DNA of 28,430 nt from a virus: IMG/VR virus record IMGVR_UViG_3300006790_000088, positions 1 to 28,430 of that record; one strand, given 5' to 3'. Positions within the stretch are counted from its first letter, which is position 1. Each line of letters opens with the position of its first letter. Both the position numbers and the translations under genes were made by a program. Below, in pieces: positions 3-21,438 of this stretch. The notes under the pieces are model-generated. The model was given only the letters and a program-made list of their open reading frames with translations, did no database searches and was not told the origin of the DNA.

Positions 3-2093
3 GAACCATCATTTGAACTAGAAAGTACTGAGCCTGCAGCAGATAGTAGAAAATCAAAATTTACACAGCAGACCCCAGGTAATGTTGATGGAAGCATAGA
101 AACAAAAACTTTTTCATACCAAAAGAAAAAAAATAGTTCAGGTGCTTATTATTTAGTCTTTGATGAAAATGAAAATCCTATAACAAGAGACAAAGATTTT
201 GGTATAAGCTTTAATGATGATCTGCTTGCAAATCCTAATCTAATAAATGAAAACACTAAAGTATACGTAAGACCTTTTGAAACTCCTTACTTCAGAAACG
301 AAATAGCAAATAATCCAGGTCGTAATCCTTCCAATGATTATATGGAGATTCCAATGATCTTGTATATCGAACATGAAGGAAATAAAGTAGCAGTAGGTAT
401 ATTAAAAGCAGCTAATACAACAGAAGAAGAACAACAAATTCGAAATGCTATATTTCAAAATTGGACTAAAACTAACAAAGAGGGTTATACAGTAGCGAAC
501 TTAGTACCCACAGACGAAGATGTGTTTATAAATTTCACAGGTGGTCAAAATCTAAGAAACGTAAGAGATGATCAGAATAAACCAGTACTTAAACCTGTAG
601 CAGAAAGATGGACATCAGCATGGCAAGACGATGGAGAAGGAAACATTGAATTCTACACAGATGAAGATGTGGAGCTTAAATTTGGATATGTAAATAAACC
701 ATTAGAAGGAGCACCACAAATAATAATTCCACAAGAAGGAACTTCTAACTTATCAAGGGAAGCAAAGGTTCTTAGACCAGAAAGAAGTGAAGCAGGTCAA
801 ATATACGGTGTTATTTTAAATGGTAATGGACAATATATTTTTCCAAAACTATCGACATCACAAATAAGTGAAAAAGCAGCTAAAGTAATAAGCGATATTT
901 TAAATCAGGATAAAGTTTCCAAACAAGATGTTGAAGCAATACAAGAAATTATATTCACTGAATACGAAAATTCAGACATAATAGAAGCTATTGCAAGCTT
1001 AACAAATGTTCCTGATAATAGAAATATTGACCCTATTATTAGAATAGCTTGGAATCACACTAAAAAAAATGCCTATATCCAATTTATACATAATGATAAG
1101 GTTTATAGTGTAGATGTAAACGATCTAAAAGATGATGAACCTGCAAGTCTAAGAAGAAAAAAAGTAGTAGTAAAAGAAAATGCAGCTGCTAATAAAAAGG
1201 AACAATCACTTTCAACAGAAGGTATAGATGCTAAAGTCATATATAATGAGTTAGGTGTGCATCCACTTGTAATAATTAATGAAATTATAAAAAGAAAAAA
1301 ATACAATGTTCGAAGAGAAAGTCTAAATGACTTTACAGAGGAATATACAAGTCGTGTTACTGGTCAAGTATACAAAAACTATAATGACTATATATCTGGA
1401 AGAAAAGATCAAAACGGAAATCCAAACAATGAAATCAATAATAAAAGAGCAATTCTACAAACCGACATACAACCATCGAGTGAAGGAAATTACTTCTATG
1501 ATTTACAATTACAAATCACAATCAAAAAGGAAGAAGTTCAGGAAGAAGATGCCGAAGTTAAGGAAGAAAGTAGAATGCCAGAGGATCTTGAAGAACCAGA
1601 GGATAAATATGATAAATTCGCAAAAGGAAAGAACTTATTTGGACTTGGAAAGGACCCATCTGAGAATCCATCTGGAACTATAGGAGGCATACCTTCAATG
1701 TCACCTAGAGGAAGATTCAATATGTTCCTTAACAAATTCAATATTCAAATATCAGGGTTTAGCTCGATAAGACCAGGAAAGGTAGATCCAGTAACAGTAA
1801 AGCAATTTAAGAATGAAGCTAAAATATTTGGACTGGAAGGAAGAGTATCTACTAATGGGTCATTGTATCTGTATGATCCATCAACAAAAAAAGCGTTAGT
1901 AAAAGATAACAGTCCATCAAATAATCCTAACTTTAAATTGAAATTGAGTAGAGTAAAACCAATTAAGACGGATTACCCTTATCAAACTACACGTACTAAA
2001 AATGGAAGAACAATATTCCAACTTGGAATAACTCCTATTGAATGGGCGACTACTCCCGTTAAAGAAAAAGAAAACATTATAAATTGTAACTAA
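3..2093 (+). CDS. C-terminal part of a giant phage virion-associated protein (5' end outside window)
   Basis: The reading frame is open from base 3 with no stop, so the gene starts left of the window. The first in-window ATG (342) is only an internal methionine: 113 further codons are readable upstream in the same frame. About 696 residues are visible. I do not recognise a catalytic domain. A strongly acidic, Glu/Lys-rich linker lies around visible residues 510-545, followed by a Gly/Pro/Ser-rich stretch and a compact C-terminal region containing GRFNMFLNKFNIQISGF. The stop TAA shares its last A with the ATG of the polymerase gene, implying translational coupling. In crAss-like phages the giant polymerase gene is flanked by other giant virion proteins, so a capsid-cargo role is inferred from position only. 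No signal peptide or membrane segment is visible in this part. Confidence 0.8.
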   Translation, partial: EPSFELESTEPAADSRKSKFTQQTPGNVDGSIETKTFSYQKKKNSSGAYYLVFDENENPITRDKDFGISFNDDLLANPNLINENTKVYVRPFETPYFRNEIANNPGRNPSNDYMEIPMILYIEHEGNKVAVGILKAANTTEEEQQIRNAIFQNWTKTNKEGYTVANLVPTDEDVFINFTGGQNLRNVRDDQNKPVLKPVAERWTSAWQDDGEGNIEFYTDEDVELKFGYVNKPLEGAPQIIIPQEGTSNLSREAKVLRPERSEAGQIYGVILNGNGQYIFPKLSTSQISEKAAKVISDILNQDKVSKQDVEAIQEIIFTEYENSDIIEAIASLTNVPDNRNIDPIIRIAWNHTKKNAYIQFIHNDKVYSVDVNDLKDDEPASLRRKKVVVKENAAANKKEQSLSTEGIDAKVIYNELGVHPLVIINEIIKRKKYNVRRESLNDFTEEYTSRVTGQVYKNYNDYISGRKDQNGNPNNEINNKRAILQTDIQPSSEGNYFYDLQLQITIKKEEVQEEDAEVKEESRMPEDLEEPEDKYDKFAKGKNLFGLGKDPSENPSGTIGGIPSMSPRGRFNMFLNKFNIQISGFSSIRPGKVDPVTVKQFKNEAKIFGLEGRVSTNGSLYLYDPSTKKALVKDNSPSNNPNFKLKLSRVKPIKTDYPYQTTRTKNGRTIFQLGITPIEWATTPVKEKENIINCN

Positions 2094-5000
2094 TGGCATT
2101 AGGTTGTATAAACATATTATCCCCTGACTTTTTAGATCTCAAAAAACAAACAGGGCTTAACGAGCATATTTTAGCTGCTAAAATAAAGTCTTGGCAAGAT
2201 CGTAATAAGCGTGAGTTAGATGAATTTCCTACAGCTGATGATTTAGGATACATTGCTAGGTACAATTTCAGTAGCGATATAGATACAAATACTATAAACT
2301 ATAATCTTAAAGTTGTAGATGCCCTTTTAAAAATATCCGAAAATAGAAAAACAATACGTCTAAATACAAAAGACAAGCCTTACATAGAAGAAAACCTTAC
2401 TAAAGCTCTAGCCACATCTGTACCTAAAGCTCAGATCAAAATGGTATTTGATAAGCTTAGAGAGAAAGGTGTAACAAGCATGCCTGTTGATCAATTGATC
2501 ACTGATCTATTAGCTGAAAATAGTTTTGCTATTGAAATTAGCACTGCTGTTGAGTATACTAAACGTGATAAAGCTTCGGGAGTAGAAACATTTATTTCAA
2601 ATGGGTATGTGTATAGCGGAGTTCAAGGCATATATAATAGATATAAGTTAAAAGACAGTTCTTTAGAAGATAGTTCTGAGTCTAATGTTGATTTTGATAC
2701 AGAAGAAACTATTTCTGAAACTGATTTTGAAACAGCTAAGAAAACAGCAGTTGGTTTTAAAACACCTAGTCGACATTTTGATTATGTAAACATTACAGGA
2801 GGTGAAAATTATAGAGAAAATGCTATTAGAACTCCTGGTATTCTAAATATTTCTTCTGGTCTAGGTAGTCATATTACAGACTTTAGTGAGGGTATACCTG
2901 ATATGTTAGGTTGGTTTAGAAGCGACGATAGAGCTATGATATCAAAAGCTAAATTAGCATCTGAGCTTACAAAAGATCTAAAAGATAATTTAGTAGTACA
3001 AATAACAAATGGTAAAATAACTGTACTTGATAGTTGGGAAGATGCAGATGAGTCTGAACATCTAGATCAAATAATGGAATACCCCAATGTATTTGATAGT
3101 TCAGAGTTATACAATGGAAAATTTGTAGTTGATAAATCAGTTATTGAAGAAGCTGTAGGATCGGGATACACATTAGATTCCGTAGAAGTATCCGAAGACG
3201 CTTATACACGTAGAATACTAGAACTACAATCTTATTTATTTCAGGAAAATAGGGATAAAAGTAAGTTAACTAAGCAAGAGTATAAAAAAGGTGATAAGGT
3301 TTTCGTAAACGGTGAAGCATATATATTTGGTAAAAAAGCTATACCTTCTACTGGACTTGAACCAAAAATATATTTACATCATGTAAACAATACTACTCAG
3401 CAAAAATATGATTTAATAGTAGACCCAAGTTCTGTGACTTCTACCAGTAATCAATTCCTACAACTATTAAACACAGACAATAACTGGGTAACATTCTTTG
3501 TTAAATCTATACTACAAGATAGTGCTAGAAGAGGGTATGAAAAAGTATTATTTCCTACAGGTAGAACTGCTGCTAAAATTGAACAACACGTTCCTCTTAA
3601 AGACCAATTAACAACACTAGAAGAACAAATTCAAAAGCTTAGTGATTTTGATAAAGCAAAATTACAAGAAGAACTTAAACAAACTCAAATAGAGGTTAAA
3701 GAAAAAGAAGATGAGATTGCAGAATTAGAAGAAAAAATGCAAGCTCTTGTAGATAAAGCTGAGTTTGGATTTCAAGAGATTTATGTAAACGTTGAAGGAT
3801 ATGACAATGCAAGAATACAGCATACAGATAGCCCTGCTAGAAAAGGTAATGACACGTATCTTGCACTACTTCCTGAAAACTATAAAGGTTACTATATCTA
3901 TGCCTATAATGTAGGAAGGGACAGGGACAATAATGCATTTCCTCCAATTGTACCTTCAAAAGTTGCAATACCTATTACAGATGAAAAAGCTTTAGAATAT
4001 TATGAAGCTGAAACTCATACTATTCTTAAACTTAATGTACATGATAGACAGGAGTATCTAAACCTTAAAAATAAAGTTGATTTTCTCTCACAGGAAGGTA
4101 AAATTATACAACTTAAAGACAATATTAAAAACTTTGAAGTAATAAAGCGTTCAAATGAAAAAAGAATAGAAGAGTACAGAAATGAGAAAGCTGATCTGTT
4201 AAAAACTGGTCCCCCTATTGAAAGTTTTTATGAAAACCGTGTAACAAATACTTTGAATAAAATTTTTGGTAAAAGTAATGTCAAGAAAATTACTGATGAA
4301 CACAGTAATACCTGGAATGAAGTTAATGTAGGAGAAGAACAATTAGCAGATGTAGCATTTAGTAGAAAACCAGTAACATCAGCATTTAGAATTTCAAAAA
4401 CCAAAAGTGGTCAAAAAGAATATGACCTGGATAAAAAACCAAAAGGTGAGTCTACTGAAGTAGAACTCGTAATTGATCCTTCAAGAACACTCGATATTAC
4501 AGAAGCTCAAGAAAGTGGAATAGCTACCAATGACATGCTTATATATGAGCAGATATTAAGAGAGGCTAAGTATGAGTACGATTATGTTACAAGTGATACA
4601 TACAAGCAAATGTCACCATTATCTCGTGATGAAGATATAGGTGCTATTGTAGCTAAGAAAGCATTAGAGAAAGGATATGAAGGTGTAATACAATACAAAT
4701 CGCCTTATGCACCAAATGTACAAGCAATACGAGATAAAGGACGTAAGTACACAAAGTTTGGTTCATTAAATCCTAATCAGATAGATCTGGATGATGCTAA
4801 ACAATGGCTTGAATCAAGAGGTCTTTCTTTTGATATGGCTCAACAAACCATTGAAATAGCTAAAGGAATGCCTCATGGTGTAGAAGGATTATTCTCAGAA
4901 GGTGTTATTTACTTATCTAAGTACGCAACCAAGGGTACAGAATATCACGAAGCATTCCATGCAGTGTTCAGAATGTTTCTTACAGATGAGCAACAAGATG

Positions 5001-8000
5001 CAATACTTGCTGAATCTAAAAAGCAACGACCTGTAAGTCAAGAAGAACTTGATGAGCTTGAGGAAGCAGGATACTTTAGAATAGGAGATGATGGAAAGAT
5101 CTATAAGAACATTGATGTAAAGGCACAAGGAAAAGGTAAACCTACAATTATTACTGGAGAAGAGTTAGAACGATTAGTTCTTGAAGAAAGACTTGCTGAA
5201 CAATTCAGATCTTACGTAATATCAAATCAAAAAGTAAAATCATTAAGTGAAAAAATACAAAAGTTCTTTAGTGATCTATGGAAGTATATCAAATATTACT
5301 TCTCAAACAAGATGACAATCGACAGATTGTTCTTCAATATTGACAAAGGTAGAATCAATAAAAAGAATCTCAATATGAGATTTGCTTCTAAGGGAGCAGC
5401 TGCTTCTTTTAGTAGAAATGAAAGTAAACTATACAACAAATTCAGCGATAGTCAAATAGAAAATATCATAAATGACATAAACAGTTATTTCATTTCACTC
5501 AATAAACAATTCCCTGAAGATTCACCTAATGATCTGTACTCTGCTATAAGAAGACAAATTAAAAAAGGAATATTCGTAAAAAACAATAATCTGCTAACAT
5601 CAAAAGAAGCAAGTTTTCATATTGAAAACCTAAAAATGTTACTTGATGATGATCTCAACATAACAAAAGAGTTTCAAGATTATATGACCAATAATAATTT
5701 AGTCTTCCGTCAACACAACGGTATTAAAATTGGTAAAACCTTATTGTTTACCGATTTATTATGGGAAGATGCTTCAGCAGAATACGGTAACATAGAAGAC
5801 CGTGGTATTCTATACAAAGCAAAAATTGGACTACAAAGATTTGGATACAAAGTGTATGGTGATGAAGTAAGTATTCATGAAGATCAAGATGATATAGATG
5901 AAAAAATATACGATAAGTCACACCTTGAAGAGAATAGAAAAGACACTCTATCAAAAGATATAAAAGAGTTCTTAACATTTATTCCAGTATTGGTCAAAGA
6001 CAGCAATGACCAATTTGTTAAAAAAGTAGGAATACTTGGTGCGGATGTTTATTACAATTTTGACGAACTATACTCCAATATTGCTTTCTCACTTACAAAT
6101 AGTAAGAGTTATGATCACATGATCAAGAACCTTGAACTAAGATCTAATAATTTTCCAGAGTTAAAATCTGTATTAAATGAGTTAAAGTCAAAGCAGAAAA
6201 ATGAAATGTTCAAATCAAAATTCTATTCTGCAATGGCAAATACTTATAACAACTTCATTGGGGCCATTGAAGAAGTAATGTTAGATGCTAATGGTACGAA
6301 AGCTGGAATAAGAGTAAGATACTATAACTCGAATTTAAATAATGTTGAAAAGAAGTTATTGAAAAGATGGAAAAATAACTCTAGAGCAAGTGACGGTACA
6401 GGCTTATTAACTAATTCTGATGAAAATGAATTAGTGATAAATGAAGACATTTTAGATAGACTCAATGATACATCTGAAGATTCAATAGGTAATGTACTAA
6501 TGAATTACTATAACAGAAGAAAGAGATCATTAAATAGCATTCCATTAGATGAAGAAATAGATGCAATAGCTGAATTTGCAAACCTATTAGGTATGGATAT
6601 ACCAAGAGAAACTTTTGAGTTAGCTTTTAACAACGGAATAATAATTAAAAATCAACCTATAAAAGGCTATGATCTATTTGGATATCTTACTGGTGGCGCT
6701 TCAACTGTAGATGACGCACTAAAATTGAAACTGTACGAAAAAGCAAACGACAATACTCCCGTAGCTACTTTAGTAAAAGAGGATGCGAATGGATACATAA
6801 TGGATCCTTATACAGAGTATGTAAGCGTAATAAAGAAGTTTGCACTGTTAAGTGCTTCTTTTGAGAGAAACGCCCACGGATCATTTATAAATGCAGCAAA
6901 TAAAAGTACATATCCAATAAATACAAATACTACACTTGACAGAATAATAAATGCTGCAAAAACATACGATTCTAAATCTACAGAGTTTTGGGATGAATGG
7001 CTCAGACAGTTCAAAGAAGATCCTTTTTACATGCCAAGTAGAGGATCTAGCAATAGAGATAAAAGAAAGTATGATAGCATATTAATTAGTGAGATTTTAA
7101 ACAGCACCTCAACATTTATCAATGACATGCTTGAAATCTCAGATTTCGATGCATACAAAAAGAGAAATGAATTTGTAACTAAAAATACATTTGAATTACT
7201 TTCTGACAAATTATCATTAATTCATAGATTAAACGCTTTCGGTAATAATGGTAACGCAAATGAAATGCTTATTGTATTACCTACCCTTGCAGATAGAACT
7301 AGAATGATGATGCTTAGTTTGCCAAGACTAAGTCATTATTTTACAAACAATGATGGGTATACGTTTACAAATACAAATAAACTACAAGACAAGGATGGGA
7401 ACTATTCAATTTTCATGAGGTATGTAGTGCAGGATATACTTGATGCACAGAATGGTGAAAAAATGACTACTAGAATAAAGAATTATGATAAAAATCATAA
7501 ACTCTTTAGACAACTTCCATACCTGAATGAAACAGAAGCAGGTAAAAAATTAATGGAATATGCTCTTGCTAATCCAGATGCCCAGCTTACAAATCCATCT
7601 GAAGAAGTAAGTAAACTACTTGATCAAGTACAGCTCGAAATAAATAAATACGTTGAAAATGAAATTCAGCAAAAAACAAGAACGTATAAAACAACAGTAG
7701 GGAAAAACATATCTGATGAGGTTTTAAACATATATGAGAAAAAAGGAAGAGGTCAATCTGATTTAAGTAAAAATGAAAAGAAATCAATGTTCATAAAAGA
7801 TTATATAGTGAACACAATGATCTTTGAAGCTGAAATCATAAAACTAACTTCAGGTGATCCTGGTCTATATAAAAATAGCCTTAAAGGCGATGAGCAAATA
7901 AATACTTTAGAAAATGAAAGTAAACGATATGGTAGTTTAGCTACACCTGGAACTGAATTTAGGATACAAGATGCTCCTGATAGCTATGGTAGTAAACCAA

Positions 8001-11000
8001 AATATACAATAGGTGTAATAAATGATATTTTCAGAAAGAATGAAACACTTCTAGAATCACTTGATAAGATAATAACTGATAAGCGTGTACTAGACGTATA
8101 CAAAGAAGGAAACAAAAAACAAGGTTCAAATGTAGCAGATGGTATGGGGATAACCACTCTTGAATATTATAGAAGTATTTCTAGAGGTAATGGTACATGG
8201 GGCGATAAGAACGGTGTCAAAGAACAAGCATATCAAAACTATAAAAAAAACGGAGGAAGATTTGTAGATAACAAAGGAAGGCAAGTAAAACTTAAACCAT
8301 TAAAGACATATTCTGACGGATTATACCTAAAGGATTTTGGTAATGGTGTGAAAAAAGTAGTTAGGATAATGGTTAAGCATTCAACCTTTCCATTACTTGC
8401 TGAATTTACAAAGGGTACGGGATTCGATAATATTAGAATGCGAATGGAAAAATCAGGTCCATTTGAAAAAATTGAAAACATTAGTCCTATAGATGAAATA
8501 AATATGGATTCTGCAATAAAGTCAGGATTGCACAACGCCATAGATCTCGAATTAGATAATGATGGTAATCCTTCAATAGAGTCACTATCTAAAATGCAAG
8601 GAATAGAACTGGATACACATTTCTTAAGAATGCCTCAGATAATTCCAGATACTGCAAAAGAATCAAGAATAGGTTCACAGTTCATGAAATTATTAATCAC
8701 AAACCTCAAAAAGAATTTTGATAACCCATATGTAGTAGGAAATACAGTATTAACTGGTAAACAACTTTATGACATATATGGTGAGCTAATAGAACAGCAA
8801 CTTGAAATGGGTGTAGATAAAGTATTCAGTGATTTTGGAATACCTAAAAATGAAAAAGGTCAATATGACTTAGACGGTGTGTTTAATTCTGCTGATAAGA
8901 CATTGGCAATGTTAAAAAACATAAGAAAAGTACTCAATAATTCAATAGAGGAAAGAGAGCTACCTGACACATATCTTAAAGCATTGAATATTGTAAAAGT
9001 TGAAGAAAGTAATGAAAAAGATTATGACTTTGCCAGTCCTTTAGCTATGCCCGTATTTGCAGAAAAATTTGCCAATATAATATTAGCTATATGTAAAAGA
9101 GGATTCATGAGAATCAACATTAATGGGCAAGGTCTTGTGCAAATAGCAGAGATAGGTAAGGTCAAAACAGACGAAGAAGGTACTCATGGACTTAAGTTTA
9201 TACAAGGAAAAGAAGAAACAGTAAGTGCTAGTGCAGTAGAAAATGTGGTTAAAGATGTAGATGAAGAAACAGGGAAAGAAACTTTCTATGAAAAGATTGT
9301 ACAATACAATGATGAATACTGGACTGTAAAAGAAAAAAGAGGCGATAAAGTAAAAATTCAAAAAATAATTAGTGCGGAGATTGCCATGCCTTGGGAGTTT
9401 GCACAACGTCTTAATCTACCAAAAAATAAAAATGGTGAGTATGATATTAGTTCAATTCCTAAAGATGTATTAACGCTTATCGGATACCGTATACCTACAC
9501 AAGGTAAGAACTCAATGCTACCGTTAAAAATAGTTAAGATACTCCCTAAGTCGATGTCAAAAATGATAATGGTTCCTGCAGAGATCACTACTCAAATGGG
9601 ATCTGACTTTGATATTGATAAACTATTCACAATGATACCTAATCTAAAGGTAAAAGGTACATTGAAAGATGGGCAAAAGTTTGATTGGTTTGAAACCTAT
9701 AAGAGTGAGCTGCTAAAGAACTTACCTAAAAACATCAAGCTATCAGACAAGCAGATATCATTATTGCTTGAAGATACTGAGTACTACCTTGAAATCGAAG
9801 GTTTAGATGCAGATGAAGAAACTGCAGTACATGGTGCAGCAATACAGGCTAAAAAGAAAACAGTAAAAGCACTCAATAATCTTAAAAACTGGACCATATC
9901 TAAAGTAAAATACGATATAAACAATCTTAAAAAAGCTACTAAAAAAGGTCTTGAAAATGCATACATAGATATTGCACATGCAATGCTTACAAGTCCATAT
10001 CATATAGATGATGTACTTAAAACTATTGATTCACCTTTACTTCCTGGATTAGCCAACTTCTTTAAAAGAACAATAGCTGACTATAATGCAATACTTGATC
10101 GTAATAACGTAGATTCACAAAGAGCTCTTGAGGAAAGAAATAAGGCTGGTAGTAAAGGTATTAGTATTTCGGCAGTTGCAACTACAGGTCAAGCAGGAAG
10201 ACAATTTACGAAACTTAAAACAGGCATTCCCTACTTAATAGACAATAAAAAATATAGTGATCTCACATTAACAGAAGATAAAGAAGGTAATGATATAAGC
10301 TATCAACTACAGCAACACCTTACGATAGCTGTAGATAATGCAAACGATCCTATAATGCTCTTCTTAATGGATAATGCATTTACTTCTGGTGTACGTAATG
10401 CCATTATATCTTTAGGTATTTCTCATGAAAGCATGAAGGGAGATAGTCTAAAAAAGATGTCTAAAGAAAAGGGTATTGACGTAGAAGGACTTGATGATCT
10501 TTTTAAATCAGCTAACGGTGATGCAGTTGTATGGGCTTCTTTCTTTTTAAATCAACCAATAATCAGAAAACTCTATAAAGAATACATAAACAAAGAAGGT
10601 ACTCCTGGAAAACTATACAGAATTGCCAATAGTATATTGAGCAGTAAAATGAAAGCTGAAATTATAAATGCAACTGGAGATACAGAATTAGATAGCTTAG
10701 TAAATTACGTACAGTTGGATATCCCACTAAAAAGTGAAAAATTAATAGAAAACTTTAATAAGTCACTAGACGATAAAAGTGATGTTTTTGCCAAAGATCA
10801 ATTACAAGTACTTGGGTTATTTTTACAATTGTTCACCACAGGAAATGACATAAGCAAAGTAAACAGGATATTAAATAGTGACAGAATCAAAGACTTTAAT
10901 AATCCTGCAGGTATTGAAGCACATCTTGATCTTATAGATTACTTCGAAAAAAAGAAAATAATTACAGAAAGAGTTAGAGCAGTTGAAAAAGCAAATGTAA

Positions 11001-13126
11001 ATATATACAAAGGAGGATTTGAAGATAAAGGTAAAGGAACTCCCCAGGGGGATGGTAAAGACAAAGCTATGCGTAAAATAGCAGACGGATTTATTGGAGA
11101 AGTTTCAGATAAATCCAAAAAATCAAGTACGCTTACTAGTCATACTAAAATTAATTCTGAAAAAAATAGATTAGAATACCCTGATTCTCCTACCGTATCT
11201 TATGAACCTTTTAATATAGCTCCTAAAGTAATAATGCTAGCTAGAAACGGGGCTTTAAAAGGAAAAGACCTAAGTTCTTCTACTTTGGGAATGATAAAAT
11301 TATCTCATGAAAACGGTGCTAAATTTGTTGTTGGTGATATGCCTGGAGTGGATAGTCAATTTATAGATTATCTAAAAGAGATAGGTGCTAATTTTACTAT
11401 TTATCATACAGGTAAAACACCTAGAATTAAAGTTAGTGTAACTCAACCACAAGTTAAAATGGAAACAGATGTTGAATACATACCCACTCGTGGTATTGAT
11501 GACATCTCAAGTATACTTGAAGGAGATTATCCAATAGCAAATTCCTACATCAAGATGATAGGTACAGCTAAAGCATTAGTATCAAAATTTTTCCCATACT
11601 ATGAATCTGGTTTAGAAGATGCAAAAGCAAATATCGCAAACGAACTTGCCACTGAGTCATTAACAATAGATCAAATAAAAGCTATCAATAAAGATGCATT
11701 CATGCACCTAATAAGTCAAAAGCAGGAAGGATATGCACCATCTCCATTTGCTCCATTGTTTTCAACACAATGGGAAAACAAATTGTTAACTGGAGACAAT
11801 AATATTGCAGTACAATTCAGAAAACTAAGAAGTGAAATTGCTGATGCAGATCCAACGGATTCAATAAAAACATTAATGAACCCTGATACTGCAGAGTCTA
11901 AGTTTTTTAGTAAACTCGATGAGAATGAAGATAACACTGCAAAAGAAAAAACCACTAGTATTACAATGGATGGTCTTAGAACCATGCTTAGAAAAAGATT
12001 TAGTATCACAAAGAATGAAAAAGACATGATACGGAATAAAAGAAAACCCAAATCTTTGCTTCTAAGGACAAAAAGATCTAATGAATTTTCAAGAATAGGT
12101 AGTGAAAAGAATATCAAAATTGGAAATGAAATGTATACCATTAAATACAAAGGGGCTCATACATTAGACACAATAAAAACATCAAAAGATGTATTGATCA
12201 AAAAATTAGCATTAAAGAAAGCAGACAAAAGAAGACAAAAAGATTACAAGAACAATTATCTAGTAAAAAACTCTAAAGGGGAGAAATTTATCATTCAAAG
12301 AAAAACGTTCAAAAATTTCCTGGAAGGAACTGGAAAACAAATACACTTGTATGATATCTTTAGAACACCTCCAAAACAACAAAGAAAAATAGAAGAGAAA
12401 AAAGAAACTGATAGATATAGACATAAAACATTATCGTTCAATCAAGACTTTGCATATAGTAAAGAAGAAAAAGATACAATGACTCAAGGTTTTATGAATA
12501 TGTTAACTCATGAAAATGAAAAAGTAAGAGAGTTTGCGAAGAATCTTGTATACTATCACATTTTATCCAGAGGATTTGATAATGGTGTAAACGCATTTAT
12601 TGATATGATTCCAAATGAAGTGTGGGATGATCCAGGAATGTCTTTGCTATACAAGAAAGATGAAGAGGGAAATTTAGTACAAGAGCTAATCTCACTAAAC
12701 GAATACATTAGAAAGCACCAGCTTAATTACTTCAAGGATCCTAAATTTTTCAAAACCTTCATTGAAGATTTTATTGCACATAGGAGTGCAACTCCATATT
12801 TAATTAGACAAGTAAAACTTAAATCTGGTGAGATCAAAAAACTAAATAATAACAAAAGTGTTAGTTTGCCACCTGATAGCAAATTAGGATTGTATCCTAA
12901 GTTTTACAAAACTTTACATCAAGGTAAATTTATGCTATTGGTAAGAACAGCCCCAGGTAAATATGTAAAGTTTAATTCTTATGATCCAGCTAATACAAGC
13001 GGTGAAATAAATGATATGTGGAGATTTCAAAGATTTAATATTGAAAGACTAAAAGACAAAAAAGATTTAACTACAAACAGCGATAGACAACAAGATCAAA
13101 ATGAGAATTTTATCTGTGCATTTTAA
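2093..13126 (+). CDS. Giant crAss-like virion RNA polymerase fused to zincin and SLOG-like modules (3,677 aa)
   Basis: Probably a single-polypeptide DNA-directed RNA polymerase packaged in the capsid and injected to transcribe early genes, as established for phi14:2 gp66. The catalytic motif GSDFDIDK puts the metal-binding aspartates at D2505, D2507 and D2509, preceded by a Pro-Thr-Gln-Gly segment as expected for the second double-psi barrel. Other polymerase-like blocks are IGSQFMKLL (about 2193-2201) and VDNANDP (about 2747-2753). Upstream, HEAFH (H952, E953, H956) with a following Glu-rich helix (to E1036) marks a zincin metallopeptidase module. A heptad-like coiled coil lies near 503-560, and two A-x-x-GY-type motifs at 477-490 and 855-868 recall modules of phage polyvalent proteins. 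Residues about 3043-3115 (GDMPGVD, 3081-3087) look SLOG/Rossmann-like. The protein appears much longer than phi14:2 gp66. It starts in the TAATG overlap with the upstream gene. The polymerase call is strong; the accessory modules are motif-level readings. Confidence 0.88.
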   Translation: MALGCINILSPDFLDLKKQTGLNEHILAAKIKSWQDRNKRELDEFPTADDLGYIARYNFSSDIDTNTINYNLKVVDALLKISENRKTIRLNTKDKPYIEENLTKALATSVPKAQIKMVFDKLREKGVTSMPVDQLITDLLAENSFAIEISTAVEYTKRDKASGVETFISNGYVYSGVQGIYNRYKLKDSSLEDSSESNVDFDTEETISETDFETAKKTAVGFKTPSRHFDYVNITGGENYRENAIRTPGILNISSGLGSHITDFSEGIPDMLGWFRSDDRAMISKAKLASELTKDLKDNLVVQITNGKITVLDSWEDADESEHLDQIMEYPNVFDSSELYNGKFVVDKSVIEEAVGSGYTLDSVEVSEDAYTRRILELQSYLFQENRDKSKLTKQEYKKGDKVFVNGEAYIFGKKAIPSTGLEPKIYLHHVNNTTQQKYDLIVDPSSVTSTSNQFLQLLNTDNNWVTFFVKSILQDSARRGYEKVLFPTGRTAAKIEQHVPLKDQLTTLEEQIQKLSDFDKAKLQEELKQTQIEVKEKEDEIAELEEKMQALVDKAEFGFQEIYVNVEGYDNARIQHTDSPARKGNDTYLALLPENYKGYYIYAYNVGRDRDNNAFPPIVPSKVAIPITDEKALEYYEAETHTILKLNVHDRQEYLNLKNKVDFLSQEGKIIQLKDNIKNFEVIKRSNEKRIEEYRNEKADLLKTGPPIESFYENRVTNTLNKIFGKSNVKKITDEHSNTWNEVNVGEEQLADVAFSRKPVTSAFRISKTKSGQKEYDLDKKPKGESTEVELVIDPSRTLDITEAQESGIATNDMLIYEQILREAKYEYDYVTSDTYKQMSPLSRDEDIGAIVAKKALEKGYEGVIQYKSPYAPNVQAIRDKGRKYTKFGSLNPNQIDLDDAKQWLESRGLSFDMAQQTIEIAKGMPHGVEGLFSEGVIYLSKYATKGTEYHEAFHAVFRMFLTDEQQDAILAESKKQRPVSQEELDELEEAGYFRIGDDGKIYKNIDVKAQGKGKPTIITGEELERLVLEERLAEQFRSYVISNQKVKSLSEKIQKFFSDLWKYIKYYFSNKMTIDRLFFNIDKGRINKKNLNMRFASKGAAASFSRNESKLYNKFSDSQIENIINDINSYFISLNKQFPEDSPNDLYSAIRRQIKKGIFVKNNNLLTSKEASFHIENLKMLLDDDLNITKEFQDYMTNNNLVFRQHNGIKIGKTLLFTDLLWEDASAEYGNIEDRGILYKAKIGLQRFGYKVYGDEVSIHEDQDDIDEKIYDKSHLEENRKDTLSKDIKEFLTFIPVLVKDSNDQFVKKVGILGADVYYNFDELYSNIAFSLTNSKSYDHMIKNLELRSNNFPELKSVLNELKSKQKNEMFKSKFYSAMANTYNNFIGAIEEVMLDANGTKAGIRVRYYNSNLNNVEKKLLKRWKNNSRASDGTGLLTNSDENELVINEDILDRLNDTSEDSIGNVLMNYYNRRKRSLNSIPLDEEIDAIAEFANLLGMDIPRETFELAFNNGIIIKNQPIKGYDLFGYLTGGASTVDDALKLKLYEKANDNTPVATLVKEDANGYIMDPYTEYVSVIKKFALLSASFERNAHGSFINAANKSTYPINTNTTLDRIINAAKTYDSKSTEFWDEWLRQFKEDPFYMPSRGSSNRDKRKYDSILISEILNSTSTFINDMLEISDFDAYKKRNEFVTKNTFELLSDKLSLIHRLNAFGNNGNANEMLIVLPTLADRTRMMMLSLPRLSHYFTNNDGYTFTNTNKLQDKDGNYSIFMRYVVQDILDAQNGEKMTTRIKNYDKNHKLFRQLPYLNETEAGKKLMEYALANPDAQLTNPSEEVSKLLDQVQLEINKYVENEIQQKTRTYKTTVGKNISDEVLNIYEKKGRGQSDLSKNEKKSMFIKDYIVNTMIFEAEIIKLTSGDPGLYKNSLKGDEQINTLENESKRYGSLATPGTEFRIQDAPDSYGSKPKYTIGVINDIFRKNETLLESLDKIITDKRVLDVYKEGNKKQGSNVADGMGITTLEYYRSISRGNGTWGDKNGVKEQAYQNYKKNGGRFVDNKGRQVKLKPLKTYSDGLYLKDFGNGVKKVVRIMVKHSTFPLLAEFTKGTGFDNIRMRMEKSGPFEKIENISPIDEINMDSAIKSGLHNAIDLELDNDGNPSIESLSKMQGIELDTHFLRMPQIIPDTAKESRIGSQFMKLLITNLKKNFDNPYVVGNTVLTGKQLYDIYGELIEQQLEMGVDKVFSDFGIPKNEKGQYDLDGVFNSADKTLAMLKNIRKVLNNSIEERELPDTYLKALNIVKVEESNEKDYDFASPLAMPVFAEKFANIILAICKRGFMRININGQGLVQIAEIGKVKTDEEGTHGLKFIQGKEETVSASAVENVVKDVDEETGKETFYEKIVQYNDEYWTVKEKRGDKVKIQKIISAEIAMPWEFAQRLNLPKNKNGEYDISSIPKDVLTLIGYRIPTQGKNSMLPLKIVKILPKSMSKMIMVPAEITTQMGSDFDIDKLFTMIPNLKVKGTLKDGQKFDWFETYKSELLKNLPKNIKLSDKQISLLLEDTEYYLEIEGLDADEETAVHGAAIQAKKKTVKALNNLKNWTISKVKYDINNLKKATKKGLENAYIDIAHAMLTSPYHIDDVLKTIDSPLLPGLANFFKRTIADYNAILDRNNVDSQRALEERNKAGSKGISISAVATTGQAGRQFTKLKTGIPYLIDNKKYSDLTLTEDKEGNDISYQLQQHLTIAVDNANDPIMLFLMDNAFTSGVRNAIISLGISHESMKGDSLKKMSKEKGIDVEGLDDLFKSANGDAVVWASFFLNQPIIRKLYKEYINKEGTPGKLYRIANSILSSKMKAEIINATGDTELDSLVNYVQLDIPLKSEKLIENFNKSLDDKSDVFAKDQLQVLGLFLQLFTTGNDISKVNRILNSDRIKDFNNPAGIEAHLDLIDYFEKKKIITERVRAVEKANVNIYKGGFEDKGKGTPQGDGKDKAMRKIADGFIGEVSDKSKKSSTLTSHTKINSEKNRLEYPDSPTVSYEPFNIAPKVIMLARNGALKGKDLSSSTLGMIKLSHENGAKFVVGDMPGVDSQFIDYLKEIGANFTIYHTGKTPRIKVSVTQPQVKMETDVEYIPTRGIDDISSILEGDYPIANSYIKMIGTAKALVSKFFPYYESGLEDAKANIANELATESLTIDQIKAINKDAFMHLISQKQEGYAPSPFAPLFSTQWENKLLTGDNNIAVQFRKLRSEIADADPTDSIKTLMNPDTAESKFFSKLDENEDNTAKEKTTSITMDGLRTMLRKRFSITKNEKDMIRNKRKPKSLLLRTKRSNEFSRIGSEKNIKIGNEMYTIKYKGAHTLDTIKTSKDVLIKKLALKKADKRRQKDYKNNYLVKNSKGEKFIIQRKTFKNFLEGTGKQIHLYDIFRTPPKQQRKIEEKKETDRYRHKTLSFNQDFAYSKEEKDTMTQGFMNMLTHENEKVREFAKNLVYYHILSRGFDNGVNAFIDMIPNEVWDDPGMSLLYKKDEEGNLVQELISLNEYIRKHQLNYFKDPKFFKTFIEDFIAHRSATPYLIRQVKLKSGEIKKLNNNKSVSLPPDSKLGLYPKFYKTLHQGKFMLLVRTAPGKYVKFNSYDPANTSGEINDMWRFQRFNIERLKDKKDLTTNSDRQQDQNENFICAF

Positions 13127-13137
13127 AATAAGCAGTA

Positions 13138-16100
13138 ATGGCAATATCATGTAAGCATCAAATAGATGCATTAAACAATAAAGGCAGACTTGTAAAAGAG
13201 GATAGTGCGTTATATAAAGAGTTAAATGATCTTCTAGGTAAAGAAGATCTTGCTGATCTTACGTACAATCAAATAAACAGTGATGAGTTTAAAGCTGAGT
13301 TTGGAAATTTTAGACTGTACTACAACTTTGACGTTATTCAAAAGAAAGAATTGAAAAGCGTATACACAGAAGAAACAGCAAAGTCAGAAGCACAAAGAAT
13401 AAACAACATTTACGGAGAAAATAGTGCTGTGGCAATTAAATCTGGAGATAATTGGGATGTAACGTTAATATTACCTTCAGATAACTCAGTAACAAAAGCA
13501 GTTAACCGACAGGGTGAACCATTGATTTTTTATCAAACGGGAGAAAATACATTTACAACTAGTCTTGCTGAAGCAGGATTATATGAAACTCCTGAAGACT
13601 ATGAAGGTACATTGCCAAGAGTTAAAAAAGGAGAAACTTTTCCATTATTCTTGAACATAAAGACAAAAGAAGATGGAGAAATTGAAGAAATGGGCGATCT
13701 TTTTGAAAACGTAAAAGCAACAATAAAAAATGAAGGTGTTGCCTATTTTGCAGCTACAGGTAAAGCAATTACGATAATTACTGAAGAAGAGATAAAAAAA
13801 GAAATAGAACTTGATGTAGACGCAACTGAAGAAGAGATAGAAAGAAATCGAGAATTAAATACACTTGCCCTTACGACAATAGAGTCTCTTGAAAAGAAAC
13901 TTGAAATTATAAAAAGAAAAGAAGAGAAAAAGGATAAGAGTAAAAGAAGAGGTACGTTAGTAGGAAAATTATCTGAACAAATAAAAGAACTTAGAAAACT
14001 TAGATCGCTAACTGGAAATATAAATGATGAAAGTGTAGCAGAAAGAAATTTACTAATACTTCATAAATTTTTACAATTCGCAAAAGACTCAGTAGAAGCT
14101 GTAGATAAAAGAGTAAGTCTTATCGAAAAAGAGATCAAAAGTGGAAAACTTGAACCAAAGCAACTATTAAAAAGAATAGCTACTGCAAAAGATTACATGT
14201 CAGTATTTGATATGGCAACTGATATAGCCGACACCATAAAAGATCTTGAAGGAATTGTTAGCATTGACTTAGACTTAAGTGAAGAGAAATTAAGAACAGA
14301 ATTTGTAGACCCTATAATGGGAAGCATTAATATGTTGAACGGTAAATACATCAGATTAGCTAAACCTATAATTGTTGACTTTTTAAGTAAATACACTGGT
14401 GACACTAAGCTTACAAAAAGAGACATTCATAATATGCTCACACACGTACATGATGATATTGATTATATAACATATTTAGCAGACTCTTTAGCAGATTCAA
14501 CAGATAGGGTGTTAGCACTAGTTGATAAAGTGATCAAGACTGAAAAAGCAAAAATAAATTTTGAGATGGTAAGTTTCAGAAACACAGAAATGAAAAAGGT
14601 AATAAACGATCTCAAAAGATCACAATCTGTTTCTGCAAACAATCACGAAAAGTTCTACAATTTTATGTTAGATCGTGATTCAAAAGGAAAACTAACTGGA
14701 AAATATATAGAAAAAGATTCACAAAGGTATAAAAGCTTAACAGCAGCTCAAAAAGCATTTTATGATTTGTTTCATGAAAATTATCAAGAACATCAAAAAA
14801 GACTTGGTGCAGGGTTTCAAAGGAAATATTTTATTCCATCAATTTTGAAACCAGGAAGCGAAAGAGCATTTCAAGACGTAAGGGGAGTTTCATCAGCAGT
14901 TAATGCTGCAGCTAAATCAATGGGAGACTTAGTAAAAAGAAGAGAAGATGAAAAAGACTACATAGAAGTTTATACAGATGAGCAAGGTAGAGAATTTAAA
15001 TTTATTCCTATAAAATACACCTCAAGGATAAGTAGAGAAAAAGATAAAGGAGTTAATCCAGATGATATATCTCTGAATTTAGAGGAAAGTCTGCAAATGT
15101 TTATGACAATGGCTAAAAATTATACAGCAATGACCAGCGTTGTAACAGAAATTATGGCAGTTCAAGATCTTGTAGCTGTAAGAAGAGTTACTCAAAAGAA
15201 AGGAACTAAACAAATGGTTACTGGTACTTTTAGTAAATTAATAGGTGGTGAAGAAAGAAAAGAAGTTACTGAAGCAGGAATTACAAGTAATGCTTACAAA
15301 CAATTGAAAACATATCTTGATATGCAAATGTTTGGTGAGCGAAAGAAAGATGAAGGTAACTTATTATTTGACTCATTAGACAAAGCAAAAACTCTTGACC
15401 TGCTTGGTAAATATACATCTCTAAGATCACTTGCAGCCAACCTGTATTCAGGTATCAACAACGTATCTGTGGCAAACGTAATGAACATGATCGAAGGAGC
15501 TGGTGGACAGTTCTATGAAAGAAAACATTTACGACAAGCTAAAGCAGATTACGCTAAGAACATATATGGATTTGTAAAAGATGCGGTATCAGAGTTTCCA
15601 GAGAATGAAATAAGCATATGGATGGATTCATATGATATCTTTCAAGAGTTCGATCAATATGGTAATAAGCTACCATCAAAATCTCTTGCTAGACGTTTAG
15701 CAAGTAAAGTAACCTATATTATGCAAAGCTCTGGAGAGCACATGATACAGACCGAAGTTGCTTTAGCAATGGCTAGAAGTCATAGAATTATAAACAAGCC
15801 AGGATCGAAAGATGGAACAATAATGAGCTATCAGGACTGGTTAATCGCTAATCCAGATAAACCAAATAACAAACAAAGTAAAAAAGAATTCGAAAGCTAC
15901 CCAACAGTAAAAGATTCTATAGGTGTAAAGGACGGAGTATCGTGGACACAGACAAAAGACGGAGTAAAAATTACTCAGGAACAAATGATCAGGTTCACAG
16001 AACGAATCAAAGGTGTTTACCAATACCTACATGGTAATTACTCTAAGAATGATGCAGCTGTATTGCAACAAAAAGCATTTGGAAGACTTCTTATTTTATT

Positions 16101-16740
16101 CCGTAAGTGGCTAATGCCTGGATGGAAGAGAAGATGGGGTAAAGATACATATGATAATAGAGATGTATACAATGAAAGATTAGGTGCTAACACTGGAGGA
16201 TATTATGTAATAACTTACAAATTTCTTAAACAGTACATAACTGAGGTAAAAGGAAATGTACTTGCAATGGGAGTGCTTAAAGAACAATGGAGCGCATTAC
16301 CTGAATGGAAAAAATCAGCAGTTAAAAAAACAGTAGCTGAATTCGCAATAGGTGGAGCAGTAATGCTATTACTTACACTTTTAGGAAGTCTTGAAAGTGA
16401 TGATGAAGATGATTGGATGAGATCAATGTTAGTATATCAGCTGCACAGGCTTGATTCAGAAATATCTTTCTACAGAAATCTAGGATCAGGAATAGAAGTA
16501 TTACGATCTCCTTCAGCTGCTATGAGTACTATAGGAGCAGTAGGAAAAGCATTTAAGACTTCATTTGGTCCAGCATTTAACTTTGGAGAAGACTGGATGG
16601 AATATGAAAAGTATGAACGTGGTAAACATAAAGGTAAAACTAAAGCAAGTGTAGCACTTAAAAAACTAGTACCTATCACAAGTCAGATAGAAAGAATGCT
16701 TACACCATATGATGTTGCGAAATATTTGGAAAGTTTATAA
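13138..16740 (+). CDS. Giant virion-associated protein downstream of the RNA polymerase, with C-terminal hydrophobic segment (1,200 aa)
   Basis: Starts 11 bases after the polymerase stop and ends just before a strong terminator, so it is the last gene of the late unit. No known enzyme motif is recognised. Residues about 228-300 are highly charged and helical (Glu/Lys/Arg heptads, probable coiled coil). The middle contains a Tyr/Asn-rich block followed by a Ser/Leu/Ala-rich region around 760-800. Around 980-1000 a basic-aromatic stretch (FRKWLMPGWKRRWG) is followed by one clear hydrophobic segment at about 1069-1086 (AIGGAVMLLLTLLG), then an acidic patch SDDEDDW. A single late hydrophobic helix next to basic aromatics would suit a cargo or ejection protein that contacts a membrane during DNA delivery; this is inference. 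The N-terminus MAISC resembles the MALGC start of the upstream polymerase protein. High confidence that it is a gene, moderate that it is a virion cargo protein. Confidence 0.82.
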   Translation: MAISCKHQIDALNNKGRLVKEDSALYKELNDLLGKEDLADLTYNQINSDEFKAEFGNFRLYYNFDVIQKKELKSVYTEETAKSEAQRINNIYGENSAVAIKSGDNWDVTLILPSDNSVTKAVNRQGEPLIFYQTGENTFTTSLAEAGLYETPEDYEGTLPRVKKGETFPLFLNIKTKEDGEIEEMGDLFENVKATIKNEGVAYFAATGKAITIITEEEIKKEIELDVDATEEEIERNRELNTLALTTIESLEKKLEIIKRKEEKKDKSKRRGTLVGKLSEQIKELRKLRSLTGNINDESVAERNLLILHKFLQFAKDSVEAVDKRVSLIEKEIKSGKLEPKQLLKRIATAKDYMSVFDMATDIADTIKDLEGIVSIDLDLSEEKLRTEFVDPIMGSINMLNGKYIRLAKPIIVDFLSKYTGDTKLTKRDIHNMLTHVHDDIDYITYLADSLADSTDRVLALVDKVIKTEKAKINFEMVSFRNTEMKKVINDLKRSQSVSANNHEKFYNFMLDRDSKGKLTGKYIEKDSQRYKSLTAAQKAFYDLFHENYQEHQKRLGAGFQRKYFIPSILKPGSERAFQDVRGVSSAVNAAAKSMGDLVKRREDEKDYIEVYTDEQGREFKFIPIKYTSRISREKDKGVNPDDISLNLEESLQMFMTMAKNYTAMTSVVTEIMAVQDLVAVRRVTQKKGTKQMVTGTFSKLIGGEERKEVTEAGITSNAYKQLKTYLDMQMFGERKKDEGNLLFDSLDKAKTLDLLGKYTSLRSLAANLYSGINNVSVANVMNMIEGAGGQFYERKHLRQAKADYAKNIYGFVKDAVSEFPENEISIWMDSYDIFQEFDQYGNKLPSKSLARRLASKVTYIMQSSGEHMIQTEVALAMARSHRIINKPGSKDGTIMSYQDWLIANPDKPNNKQSKKEFESYPTVKDSIGVKDGVSWTQTKDGVKITQEQMIRFTERIKGVYQYLHGNYSKNDAAVLQQKAFGRLLILFRKWLMPGWKRRWGKDTYDNRDVYNERLGANTGGYYVITYKFLKQYITEVKGNVLAMGVLKEQWSALPEWKKSAVKKTVAEFAIGGAVMLLLTLLGSLESDDEDDWMRSMLVYQLHRLDSEISFYRNLGSGIEVLRSPSAAMSTIGAVGKAFKTSFGPAFNFGEDWMEYEKYERGKHKGKTKASVALKKLVPITSQIERMLTPYDVAKYLESL

Positions 16741-16916
16741 TATTGTCCTACATTAGTAGTCGATTTTCTAATTTCTGTTTTTCATAATTAATAATTTCTG
16801 ATTGTTAATTGTTTTGATTTGATTTATAATTTGCTCATCTAGCAAGCCCTCTACCGCCAGGTAGGGGGTTTTTTCTTAAATAGCAAATAAAAAAAAAGTA
16901 AACGGCCCCTAACGTA
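16741..16916. other. Convergent intergenic region between the two transcription units
   Basis: This 176-base stretch separates the rightward giant genes from the leftward operon. It is very AT-rich and holds the rightward terminator, two copies of TAATTTCTG about 23 bases apart, and a run of nine A residues (16889-16897) that reads as T9 on the minus strand. That T9 run could end leftward transcription, but the preceding GGGGCC-containing sequence forms only a weak hairpin. No tRNA cloverleaf or gene is visible. Confidence 0.6.
16847..16874 (+). terminator. Rho-independent terminator of the rightward giant-gene unit
   Basis: A 9-bp stem (CCCTCTACC pairing with GGTAGGGGG, one T-G wobble) closes a GCCA loop and is followed by six T residues. 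The upstream AAG can extend pairing into the T run. It lies 107 bases after the stop of the 1,200-aa gene. On the opposite strand the same hairpin has no T tract, so it is a one-way terminator. Confidence 0.9.
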
Positions 16917-17162
16917 TTAGTTCAAGCACTCCAGGTCATCGGTGGGAAATGCAACGAATGGACACCAATTATCGTCATTGATGGACCATAGTGTATCGTA
17001 TCCTTTACTACACAACATCTCAACTGAATACTCCCGTTCTCTAATCTGAGCCATGACATGAAAATAAGCCAATGCTTCACTACATTGCTTATCTGCTACA
17101 ACGGTTTCTTTTTCAAACATATCACTAATATAAAAAAAAGAACAAGATAACATCCAGATCAT
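16917..17162 (-). CDS. Small cysteine-containing protein of unknown function (81 aa)
   Basis: Its ATG overlaps the TGA of the 68-aa membrane protein gene as ATGA, a strong sign that both are real and translationally coupled. The protein has a short hydrophobic N-terminus (MIWMLSCSFFYISDMF), five cysteines (C7, C27, C51, C67, C79) and an acidic, aromatic C-terminal half. The WMLSC segment faintly resembles a lipoprotein box, but there is no positively charged n-region and the hydrophobic stretch is short, so a lipoprotein call is not supported. I recognise no family. As the last gene of the leftward operon next to a small membrane protein, a host-takeover or lysis accessory role is possible but speculative. 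Confidence 0.55.
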   Translation of the reverse strand: MIWMLSCSFFYISDMFEKETVVADKQCSEALAYFHVMAQIREREYSVEMLCSKGYDTLWSINDDNWCPFVAFPTDDLECLN

Positions 17163-17365
17163 GATTTCTCATTCTCATAAAGCTTTACAACAACATACCA
17201 CTGTCTCATCAATACTATCATAAACGACATAGCAATTGCTATCTCAAAGTATAATGGAAGGATTACAAGAAATAGCAACACTATTCCGCCTAAACATACT
17301 ATGTGAAGCAATAGTAATCTGTAGAAAGCTTCATGATTACTTAATAACCATCGAAATAAATCCAT
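17159..17365 (-). CDS. Small two-helix membrane protein (68 aa), holin-like in size
   Basis: Two hydrophobic segments, about residues 17-39 (leucine-rich, containing CLGGIVLLFLVILP) and 42-60 (IAIAMSFMIVLMRQWYVVV), joined by a very short turn, with a charged N-terminus and a KLYENEKS tail. This predicts a helical hairpin in the inner membrane. Size and topology fit class II phage holins, but many unrelated small phage membrane proteins look the same and no endolysin gene is adjacent, so the function is open. The ATG follows immediately after AAAAAGAACAAG, a leader sequence that is duplicated just after the ung stop. It overlaps the downstream 81-aa gene by ATGA. Confidence 0.6.
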   Translation of the reverse strand: MDLFRWLLSNHEAFYRLLLLHIVCLGGIVLLFLVILPLYFEIAIAMSFMIVLMRQWYVVVKLYENEKS

Positions 17366-17495
17366 CTTGTTCTTTTTAAAAGTTAGATAAATTCTTGCTC
17401 ATTTCATGATTAAGTGCATGCGTATGTTCTTGTTTGTATTCTTGCTTATATTCAGAAATCAATGTCTCATGGACATTAAACTTGTTCTTTTTAAA
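17366..17495 (-). repeat. 15-base direct repeat forming the leaders after ung and before the membrane-protein gene
   Basis: CTTGTTCTTTTTAAA (plus strand) occurs exactly at 17366-17380 and at 17481-17495, 115 bases apart. On the transcribed minus strand it reads TTTAAAAAGAACAAG. One copy ends directly at the ATG of the 68-aa gene; the other directly follows the ung stop codon region. A 12-base inverted copy (AAAAAGAACAAG on the plus strand) lies at 17135-17146 inside the 81-aa gene. Confidence 0.6.
17376..17462 (-). CDS. Possible tiny ORF (28 codons) between ung and the membrane-protein gene
   Basis: The minus strand of the 130-base gap after ung is open in one frame, from just after a TAA next to the ung stop to the TAA at 17376-17378. 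The only usable start is a TTG at 17462; there is no ATG at the position matching the neighbouring gene's start. The peptide is hydrophilic with a tandem EYKQEYKQE. It could be a decayed small gene or chance. Confidence 0.2.
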   Translation of the reverse strand: MISEYKQEYKQEHTHALNHEMSKNLSNF

Positions 17496-18200
17496 TTATA
17501 TACCCCAATTGATACAGCTTTCAGCCCCGTTATTCTGGGTAATTATATCATTGGTTTTGCTAAAGTGTTTACAACCCCTAAATGGCGTTGTAGTATTCAA
17601 GGGACTGGGATGTCCAGCCTCTAGAATATAGTTCATCTTTTCGGAAATGTATTGCTTGTAGTCTTTAGCATGATTGCCCCATAATAAATAGATCAATCCT
17701 TGCTTCTCTTCACGCAATAAACGAAATACTTCCTTAGTAAAACTTTGCCAGTATTTCTTATGACTACCAGGTTTCTTCTTCTCAACAGTAAATGCTGTAT
17801 TTAACAACAACACACCCTGTTTAGCCCAACCTGAAAGGTCATAATTACTTGCTCTGTCAAGATTAAGGCCATTATAGCAATCATCTTCTACCTCCAGTAG
17901 TATATTAGCAAGAGATTTAGGACATTTTGTATTACGGGAACCACTAAAGGCTAACCCATCTGCAGATCCATCGTGATACGGGTCCTGTCCTACTATAACA
18001 ACTCTTACTTCATCAAATGGAGTGAGCTTAAACGCCCTAAAACAATCTTCAAATGAAGGATAAACAATACTAAATGTTTTCTTACCCTTAATTGCTTTGA
18101 AATTATTTACCATTTCCTCTGAGGATAGAAAAGGCCAGAGTAACTCTAGCCATTTCTTATCCATTATTTTTTCAAATGCTTCTTTATTCATATTCGACAT
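17496..18200 (-). CDS. ung: Uracil-DNA glycosylase, family 1 (UNG)
   Basis: Removes uracil from DNA by hydrolysing the N-glycosidic bond, starting base-excision repair. The full set of family-1 motifs is present: water-activating loop GQDPYH (residues 71-76, catalytic D73), the uracil-recognition strand LLLNTAFTVE (131-140, N134), and the DNA-intercalation loop HPSPLN (197-202) followed by GCKHFSKTN. The length (234 aa) and C-terminal INWGI match cellular enzymes, so it looks intact. Its start overlaps the end of the upstream unknown gene by 17 bases; a second in-frame ATG three codons in is an alternative start. UNG genes recur in crAss-like phages. Here it is probably co-expressed with the replication genes to keep uracil out of the replicating phage DNA. 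Confidence 0.95.
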   Translation of the reverse strand: MSNMNKEAFEKIMDKKWLELLWPFLSSEEMVNNFKAIKGKKTFSIVYPSFEDCFRAFKLTPFDEVRVVIVGQDPYHDGSADGLAFSGSRNTKCPKSLANILLEVEDDCYNGLNLDRASNYDLSGWAKQGVLLLNTAFTVEKKKPGSHKKYWQSFTKEVFRLLREEKQGLIYLLWGNHAKDYKQYISEKMNYILEAGHPSPLNTTTPFRGCKHFSKTNDIITQNNGAESCINWGI

Positions 18201-19020: not shown

Positions 19021-19024
19021 TACA

Positions 19025-20182: not shown

Positions 20183-20187
20183 AATAT

Positions 20188-21432: not shown

Positions 21433-21438
21433 TTAGTT

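Follow-up and report, generated by a model that had tools for sequence, protein, structure and literature searches.

Cysteines at the gene breaks of a crAss-like cargo block suggest that the virion RNA polymerase is the middle link of a reducible protein chain

Introduction

crAss-like phages rank among the most abundant human gut viruses. Their transcription block consists of three large cargo genes, referred to here as a (gp47/gp67-like), b (the RNA polymerase, gp50/gp66) and c (gp49/gp65). In phage phi14:2, the corresponding proteins measure 1,797 (gp67), 2,180 (gp66) and 1,421 aa (gp65), with gp67, the neighbor of gp66, being the counterpart of module a. RNA polymerase (RNAP) proteins of the crAss type can reach ~6,000 aa (PMC10136315), and virion packaging followed by early transcription is known only for the phi14:2 and crAss001 homologues (PMC10172136; PMC10136315). 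The megadalton protein cargo of crAss-like phages must pass tail constrictions of less than 50 Å (PMC10172136).

Here, we describe a cargo block of this type in a 28,430-nucleotide stretch of viral DNA (IMG/VR record IMGVR_UViG_3300006790_000088, positions 1 to 28,430; hereafter the window), together with a cysteine pattern that recurs across its relatives. In the open-access literature we found no earlier report that crAss cargo proteins carry terminal cysteines or are disulfide-bonded and, as far as that literature goes, the rule appears to be undescribed.

Results

The window encodes a crAss-like virion RNA polymerase

The ORF at 2093-13126 (+ strand) is open and intact, begins with ATG and encodes 3,677 aa. 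Within it, GACTTTGATATTGAT at 9605-9619 (+) encodes the catalytic motif DFDID (residues 2505-2509), from which a sequence-only reading of this DNA had placed the protein in the crAss-like single-chain RNA polymerase family. The motif is real and not a product of chance, as the three Asp residues and the Lys that follows are invariant in an alignment of 57 relatives (57/57), and a tblastn search with residues 2001-3002 matched 136 phage records, nearly all of them crAss-like or Flavobacterium phages.

The family assignment was borne out as well. The RNAP core (7745-11017, +; residues 1885-2975) matches the phi14:2 polymerase structure 6VR4 by sequence (E 9e-18). A phmmer search with the full 3,677-aa chain missed 6VR4, which the core alone recovers, and PHROGs and Pfam searches with whole proteins as queries returned no significant family. 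An AlphaFold (AF2) model of the core, built from the 57-sequence alignment, had a pLDDT of 84.5 and a pTM of 0.87, and Foldseek identified 6VR4 as its sole significant PDB match (E 3e-35, probability 1.00), with 1,118 columns aligned and a TM score of 0.64 on the query. A predicted fold lacking two double-psi barrels around residue 2505, which the sequence-only reading had named as counting against it, thus did not emerge. Because the core matches 6VR4 by sequence and the confident model has 6VR4 as its only significant PDB match, the assignment is secure: the 3,677-aa protein is a crAss-like virion RNA polymerase of the two-barrel type, as modeled, and a new member of a known family. An N4-like virion RNAP (Schitoviridae; a T7-like single-subunit right-hand polymerase) was ruled out by the match of the fold to two-barrel 6VR4.

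The sequence-only reading had also stressed that the protein is far longer than phi14:2 gp66. It is indeed ~1,500 aa longer, but neither giant length nor fusion is special in this group: a and b form one ORF in cr4_1 (4,491 aa) and in Flavobacterium phage FPSV-S29 (4,419 aa), and several metagenomic lineages carry a, b and c in one ORF of about 4,600-5,640 aa.

Organization of the cargo block and origin of the extra length

The cargo genes of the window lie in the order a, b, c. The 3' part of module a (gp47-like cargo) occupies 3-2093 (+), and its full ORF of 2,595 aa is found in a longer, near-identical contig (G001). Module b, the RNAP, overlaps the stop of a with its start (TAATG at 2093). 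Module c (13138-16740, +; 1,200 aa), RNAP-associated cargo homologous to gp49/gp65, matches phage records by tblastn with a best E of 2e-65, and the a/zincin region is homologous to gp47. Farther along, a divergent replication block on the minus strand (17496-28428) encodes exonuclease VIII-like, RIIA-like and RIIB-like proteins, a RusA-like resolvase, a DNA primase, a Sak4-like annealing protein and a DnaB-like helicase. The 234-aa protein at 17496 looks uracil-DNA glycosylase-like by eye and falls in a PHROG of unknown function. The TerL, MCP and portal genes lie outside the window. The RNAP core served to gather the relatives, which therefore constitute one family.

The nearest relative, L008, is ~70% identical over b and 78% identical in the core. 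Its b protein has 3,001 aa and is without window residues ~52-754, which traces the extra length of the window protein mainly to one ~700-aa N-terminal module plus a zincin region. The ~700-aa module (2246-4354, +; residues 52-754) follows a short N-terminal cap that contains Cys5 (2093-2245, +; residues 1-51; E 2e-19 for the window). This cap motif is portable, with 71 matches that all fall at the N-termini of b or c and none internally, and reads C-[PI]-N-x-x-S-x-E-W-K-x-L, or a relative of it, at both N-ends. L022 and L065 have homologues of the ~700-aa module behind the b cap, L252 and L264 have them behind the c cap, and L083 has one close to the C-end of a fused a+b protein; with two further lineages, L133 and L185, the module always adjoins a gene break. 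Its sequence (NYRENAI..., ILELQS..., GYEKVLFPTG) presumably recalls phage and plasmid polyvalent proteins; a search of phage and plasmid collections gave no match for the module.

The zincin-like domain (4733-5380, +; residues 881-1096) carries HEAFH at 4946-4960 (HExxH, residues 952-956). A zincin profile HMM matches the window with E 2e-75, the window being among the seed sequences. Across 40 sequences, H253, E254 and H257 of the motif are invariant and the downstream EE (332-333; EE(xx)A) nearly so, and p-crAss-type records label the corresponding domain a zincin. A model of the region reached a pLDDT of 66, and a fold search with it gave no significant PDB match. The conserved HExxH...E fits the possible peptidase of the sequence-only reading; the domain, with gluzincin-like ligands (HExxH plus a downstream Glu), may tentatively be regarded as a candidate peptidase. 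In the window, a is separate and the a|b break leaves this domain with the RNAP, as it likewise does in L022, L029, L030, L046 and L053, and existing annotations already record an RNAP-associated protein fused to a zincin.

The nucleotide-binding module proposed alongside the peptidase gained no support. The segment concerned (11222-11434, +; residues 3044-3114) is one that we take by eye to be SLOG-like. Pfam searches on segments up to E = 10 gave only coiled-coil noise and no match for residues ~3044-3114. The segment (71 aa, VIMLARNG...VVGDMPGVDSQFIDYLKEIGANFTIYHTG) is found in only a few relatives, also occurring in L047/L246, L123 and L248, and is much more alike than the rest; judged by its sequence, it is likely a recently swapped SLOG-like module.

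Cysteines of the cargo proteins face the gene breaks

The three cargo proteins of the window are nearly devoid of cysteine. Complete a (2,595 aa), as read from G001, has a single Cys, which is its second-last residue (...IINCN; codon TGT, 2085-2087). The RNAP has three in 3,677 aa, at positions 5 (MALGC; 2105-2107), 2334 and 3675 (...FICAF; 13115-13117), and c has one in 1,200 aa, at position 5 (MAISC; 13150-13152; all codons on the + strand). All four chain ends that face a gene break therefore bear a cysteine, an arrangement with a chance of about 2e-11 under random placement. In L008, b lacks C2334, which is thus not conserved, and contains exactly two cysteines, residue 5 and the third-last residue. 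All four break-facing positions are likewise filled in phi14:2, crAss001, cr85_1, Dulem virus 41, DAC15 and cr111_1, while other ORFs of the same loci average 0.72% Cys. On the L008 contig (G002, reverse-complement 10015-17372), three large proteins of 901, 557 and 988 aa encoded upstream of a also have no cysteine, as is the case for ejection proteins of N4 and T7.

We surveyed 261 loci from IMG/VR and GTDB genomes, which formed 191 clusters at 70% core identity. Classes were assigned by a rule blind to cysteine, in which the position of DxDxD in b scored a as separate or fused and a c profile gave the state of c; an end was counted if it had a Cys within 15 residues of the terminus. Under this rule, 373 of 387 break-facing ends carry a cysteine, where ~1.7 are expected, compared with 4 of 320 outer ends. 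The break-facing ends comprise the b N-end where a is separate (68/76), the b C-end where c is separate (127/128), the c N-end (127/128) and the a C-end (51/55), the misses at the b N-end being mostly fragmentary GTDB contigs. Controls were the b N-end where a is fused (2/82), the b C-end where c is fused (0/17), the c C-end (0/114), the a N-end (1/40) and the upstream neighbor (1/67).

In a curated set of 165 rows, from which GTDB contigs were removed, the count is 361 of 367 break-facing ends against 1 of 240 outer ends, a contrast whose Fisher p ignores kinship and for which the state of a was assigned manually in the window, L055 and L081. The latter two were reset, after their cysteines had been seen, on the strength of separate a-like ORFs, and treating them as exceptions returns the rule-based figures. 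Both had been placed in the a-fused class by a length rule: L055 has a separate, abutting upstream a-like ORF, and L081 has an a-like ORF on the opposite strand, with no match to the zincin profile. Cysteine is 267-fold enriched at curated break-facing ends over the interior, compared with 1.5-fold for the next residue, Lys, and His stands at 0.97% versus 1.11% in the interior. The terminal cysteines lie within about 1-10 residues of the chain end, and both TGT and TGC are used.

Inspection of other apparent exceptions showed frameshifts in L123 and L084 and an in-frame stop in L020, and in L085 and L091/L187 the C-end Cys of a lies 24 or 32 residues in, past the 15-residue cut-off. The annotated RNAP starts of crAssZA (L098, 9804) and crAss002 (L099, 9627) appear too early, with MSC found 22-33 residues in. 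Extra internal cysteines occur in 20 of 78 complete chains, chiefly in gut or MAG contigs (L077, L081, L082), with 13 in L077 and 23 in L082; because of these chains and Cys-rich lineages, strict exclusion of cysteine is not universal. The pattern of almost Cys-free a, b and c proteins with one Cys per break-facing end is nonetheless strongly supported.

Cysteines are lost with gene fusion and return at new breaks

The number of cysteines follows the number of breaks. All-fused a+b+c proteins of ~5,100 residues contain none in eight of eight cases (40,968 aa in total), and a|b+c arrangements contain exactly one Cys in 5/5. Exactly one is also found in 34/55 a+b|c arrangements and exactly two in 38/57 a|b|c arrangements. 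Total Cys equals twice the number of breaks in 58 of the 78 complete chains and is never fewer. Where the cargo is in four pieces (L209, the same as L089) there is a Cys at each break, and where a itself is split (L241) cysteine again appears at that break. The ~700-aa module makes the same point: it follows the b|c break in L252 and L264 and precedes it in L083, and the cysteine tracks the break rather than the module.

To account for kinship, a core tree of the 165 rows was built with FastTree. It implies at least 18 changes of fusion state at a|b and at least 10 at b|c, counts that are soft because the sequences are very divergent. Cys state agrees with fusion state in 145 of 146 rows at a|b and 138 of 139 at b|c, the discordant row being a frameshifted assembly. 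Among independent pairs with supported branches, cysteine goes with the break 11:0 (one tie) at a|b and 8:0 at b|c. Cysteines are thus lost on gene fusion and are back at new breaks, and this tracking shows that they mark protein chain ends that must meet.

The pattern does not arise at the level of mRNA, as both codons are used, the position varies over 1-10 residues, and a keeps its C-terminal Cys when encoded on the opposite strand (crAss001, cr85, DAC15, bajarodcaudo). In bajarodcaudo, b is broken at GSDFD around an endonuclease gene in an intron-like manner, and no Cys is present at that split.

Discussion

The sequence-only reading raised the possibility that the RNAP protein is injected whole, a question on which the cysteine pattern bears directly. 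We consider the best explanation, at a probability of roughly two in three, to be that the injected crAss-type RNAP is the middle link of an a-b-c chain joined head to tail by disulfides. Slightly less firmly, we think it probable for the group at large that the transcription and entry proteins of these phages are ejected as a single covalent, reducible string, with splits restored by a Cys pair and fusions losing their Cys.

We infer that a disulfide connects the paired terminal cysteines, so that ejection would handle a single reducible chain, and that threading of the chain is followed by its reduction in the host. The cysteines of each pair would form their bond in the virion, after lysis or in the envelope, such that the cargo would always amount to a single covalent chain of about 5,000-7,500 residues, joined head to tail. 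This chain would be threaded through the tail in a fixed order, after which the reducing host cytoplasm would cut it into a, RNAP and c, and the freed RNAP would transcribe early genes, as is known for phi14:2. Since one Cys per end alone cannot dictate a-b over a-a, a docking contact must be assumed, for which the N-terminal cap common to the b and c N-ends is a candidate. Cysteines would be excluded elsewhere so that no wrong disulfide blocks unfolding, in line with the view of the N4 authors that the absence of Cys avoids disulfides that would block passage during ejection (PMC3715699; PMC3915230). crAss001 virions have resolved disulfides in tail and portal-vertex proteins, and the study compared reduced and unreduced virions, its main text being silent on cargo cysteines (PMC10172136). 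Thioredoxins are often found near the cargo block in crAss-like genomes (cr111_1, L102; crAssphage ZA, L098) and could bear on disulfide handling. Counting against a disulfide chain, gut phages live with little oxygen.

A rival reading is that the Cys pairs join the chain ends without a disulfide, for example by a shared metal ion or by non-covalent docking for packaging. The cap motif surrounding the Cys (C-[PI]-N...E-W-K-x-L) does suggest a docking element at the b and c N-ends, but most Cys-bearing N-ends are without it, and one Cys per end with no enrichment of His would make a poor metal site. By the N4 type of reasoning, moreover, a lone Cys is costly unless used. We therefore regard joining without a disulfide as a distinctly minority prospect.

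It is improbable that the cysteines act after entry, joining or regulating the assembly of RNAP b with a and c as a redox switch. Proteins of the gp65-67 type are RNAP-associated, which fits such a role, yet the host cytoplasm is reducing, fused versions without Cys would also need regulation, and recombinant phi14:2 gp66 is active alone (reviewed in PMC10136315). More improbable still is the single uncleaved effector of the sequence-only reading, in which polymerase, peptidase and nucleotide-binding functions travel together, unlinked to their neighbors. RNAP and the zincin-like motif do share one ORF in the window, but this account leaves the cysteines unexplained and relies on a nucleotide-binding module that found no support; because some relatives carry the zincin in a and the RNAP in b, physical fusion of the two is not required. 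Least probable of all, an ordinary injected multi-domain polymerase whose cysteines are left over from common ancestry or reflect a nucleotide signal where genes start and stop would suit the shared descent of all lineages and the frequent translational coupling of cargo genes (TAATG in the window), but not the concordant Cys at repeated fusion-state changes, the use of both codons, the Cys kept by opposite-strand a or the Cys-free outer ends of the same genes. Split-intein or native chemical ligation was rejected, as the Cys does not occupy the first position and there was no sign of an intein domain.

If the disulfide-joined chain is correct, passage of the cargo through a narrow tail would be explained as that of one reducible chain, as would the free fusion and fission of genes in the cargo block. 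From the cysteine code one could predict the linked proteins and their order. Disulfide daisy-chaining would be a rule for ordered delivery of protein cargo and could help in designing disulfide-chained proteins that are to pass narrow channels.

Comparison with known systems

The closest described system is Cellulophaga phage phi14:2, whose gp66 (6VR4), gp67 and gp65 share the two-barrel RNAP fold, the gene order and the role as virion cargo. Its cysteines are placed alike, with one in gp67 (the last residue), two in gp66 (position 3 and second last) and one in gp65 (position 3). Window b differs in being 1,500 aa longer, with the zincin-like domain and the ~700-aa module on the b side of the a|b break. 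In crAss001 (Steigviridae), the same three modules, gp47, gp50 and gp49, were all detected in virions by MS and have Cys at the same break-facing ends; however, the zincin lies at the C-end of a (gp47), which is encoded on the opposite strand.

Unlike the window, where a is separate, cr4_1 and FPSV-S29 hold a, zincin and RNAP in one ORF and have no Cys at the fused a-b junction but do have Cys at the a+b C-end and the c N-end; in the FPSV-S29 giant protein, residue 4418 is the sole Cys among 4,419 aa. N4 gp50 (Schitoviridae; 3,500 aa; PMC3715699; PMC3915230) is likewise a giant ejected RNAP and is free of cysteine, but has a T7-like single-subunit fold, no terminal Cys and no cysteine-coupled partners. 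N4 gp50-52 and T7 gp15 and gp16 have no cysteine at all, and the ejected T7 protein gp14 (L291, 1729-2319) has a single one at position 2. Finally, gp96 of Thermus phage P23-45 also embeds a two-barrel virion RNAP in a giant virion protein, but it belongs to a long-tailed phage and its RNAP lies at the N-end of the tape measure (PMC10770324).
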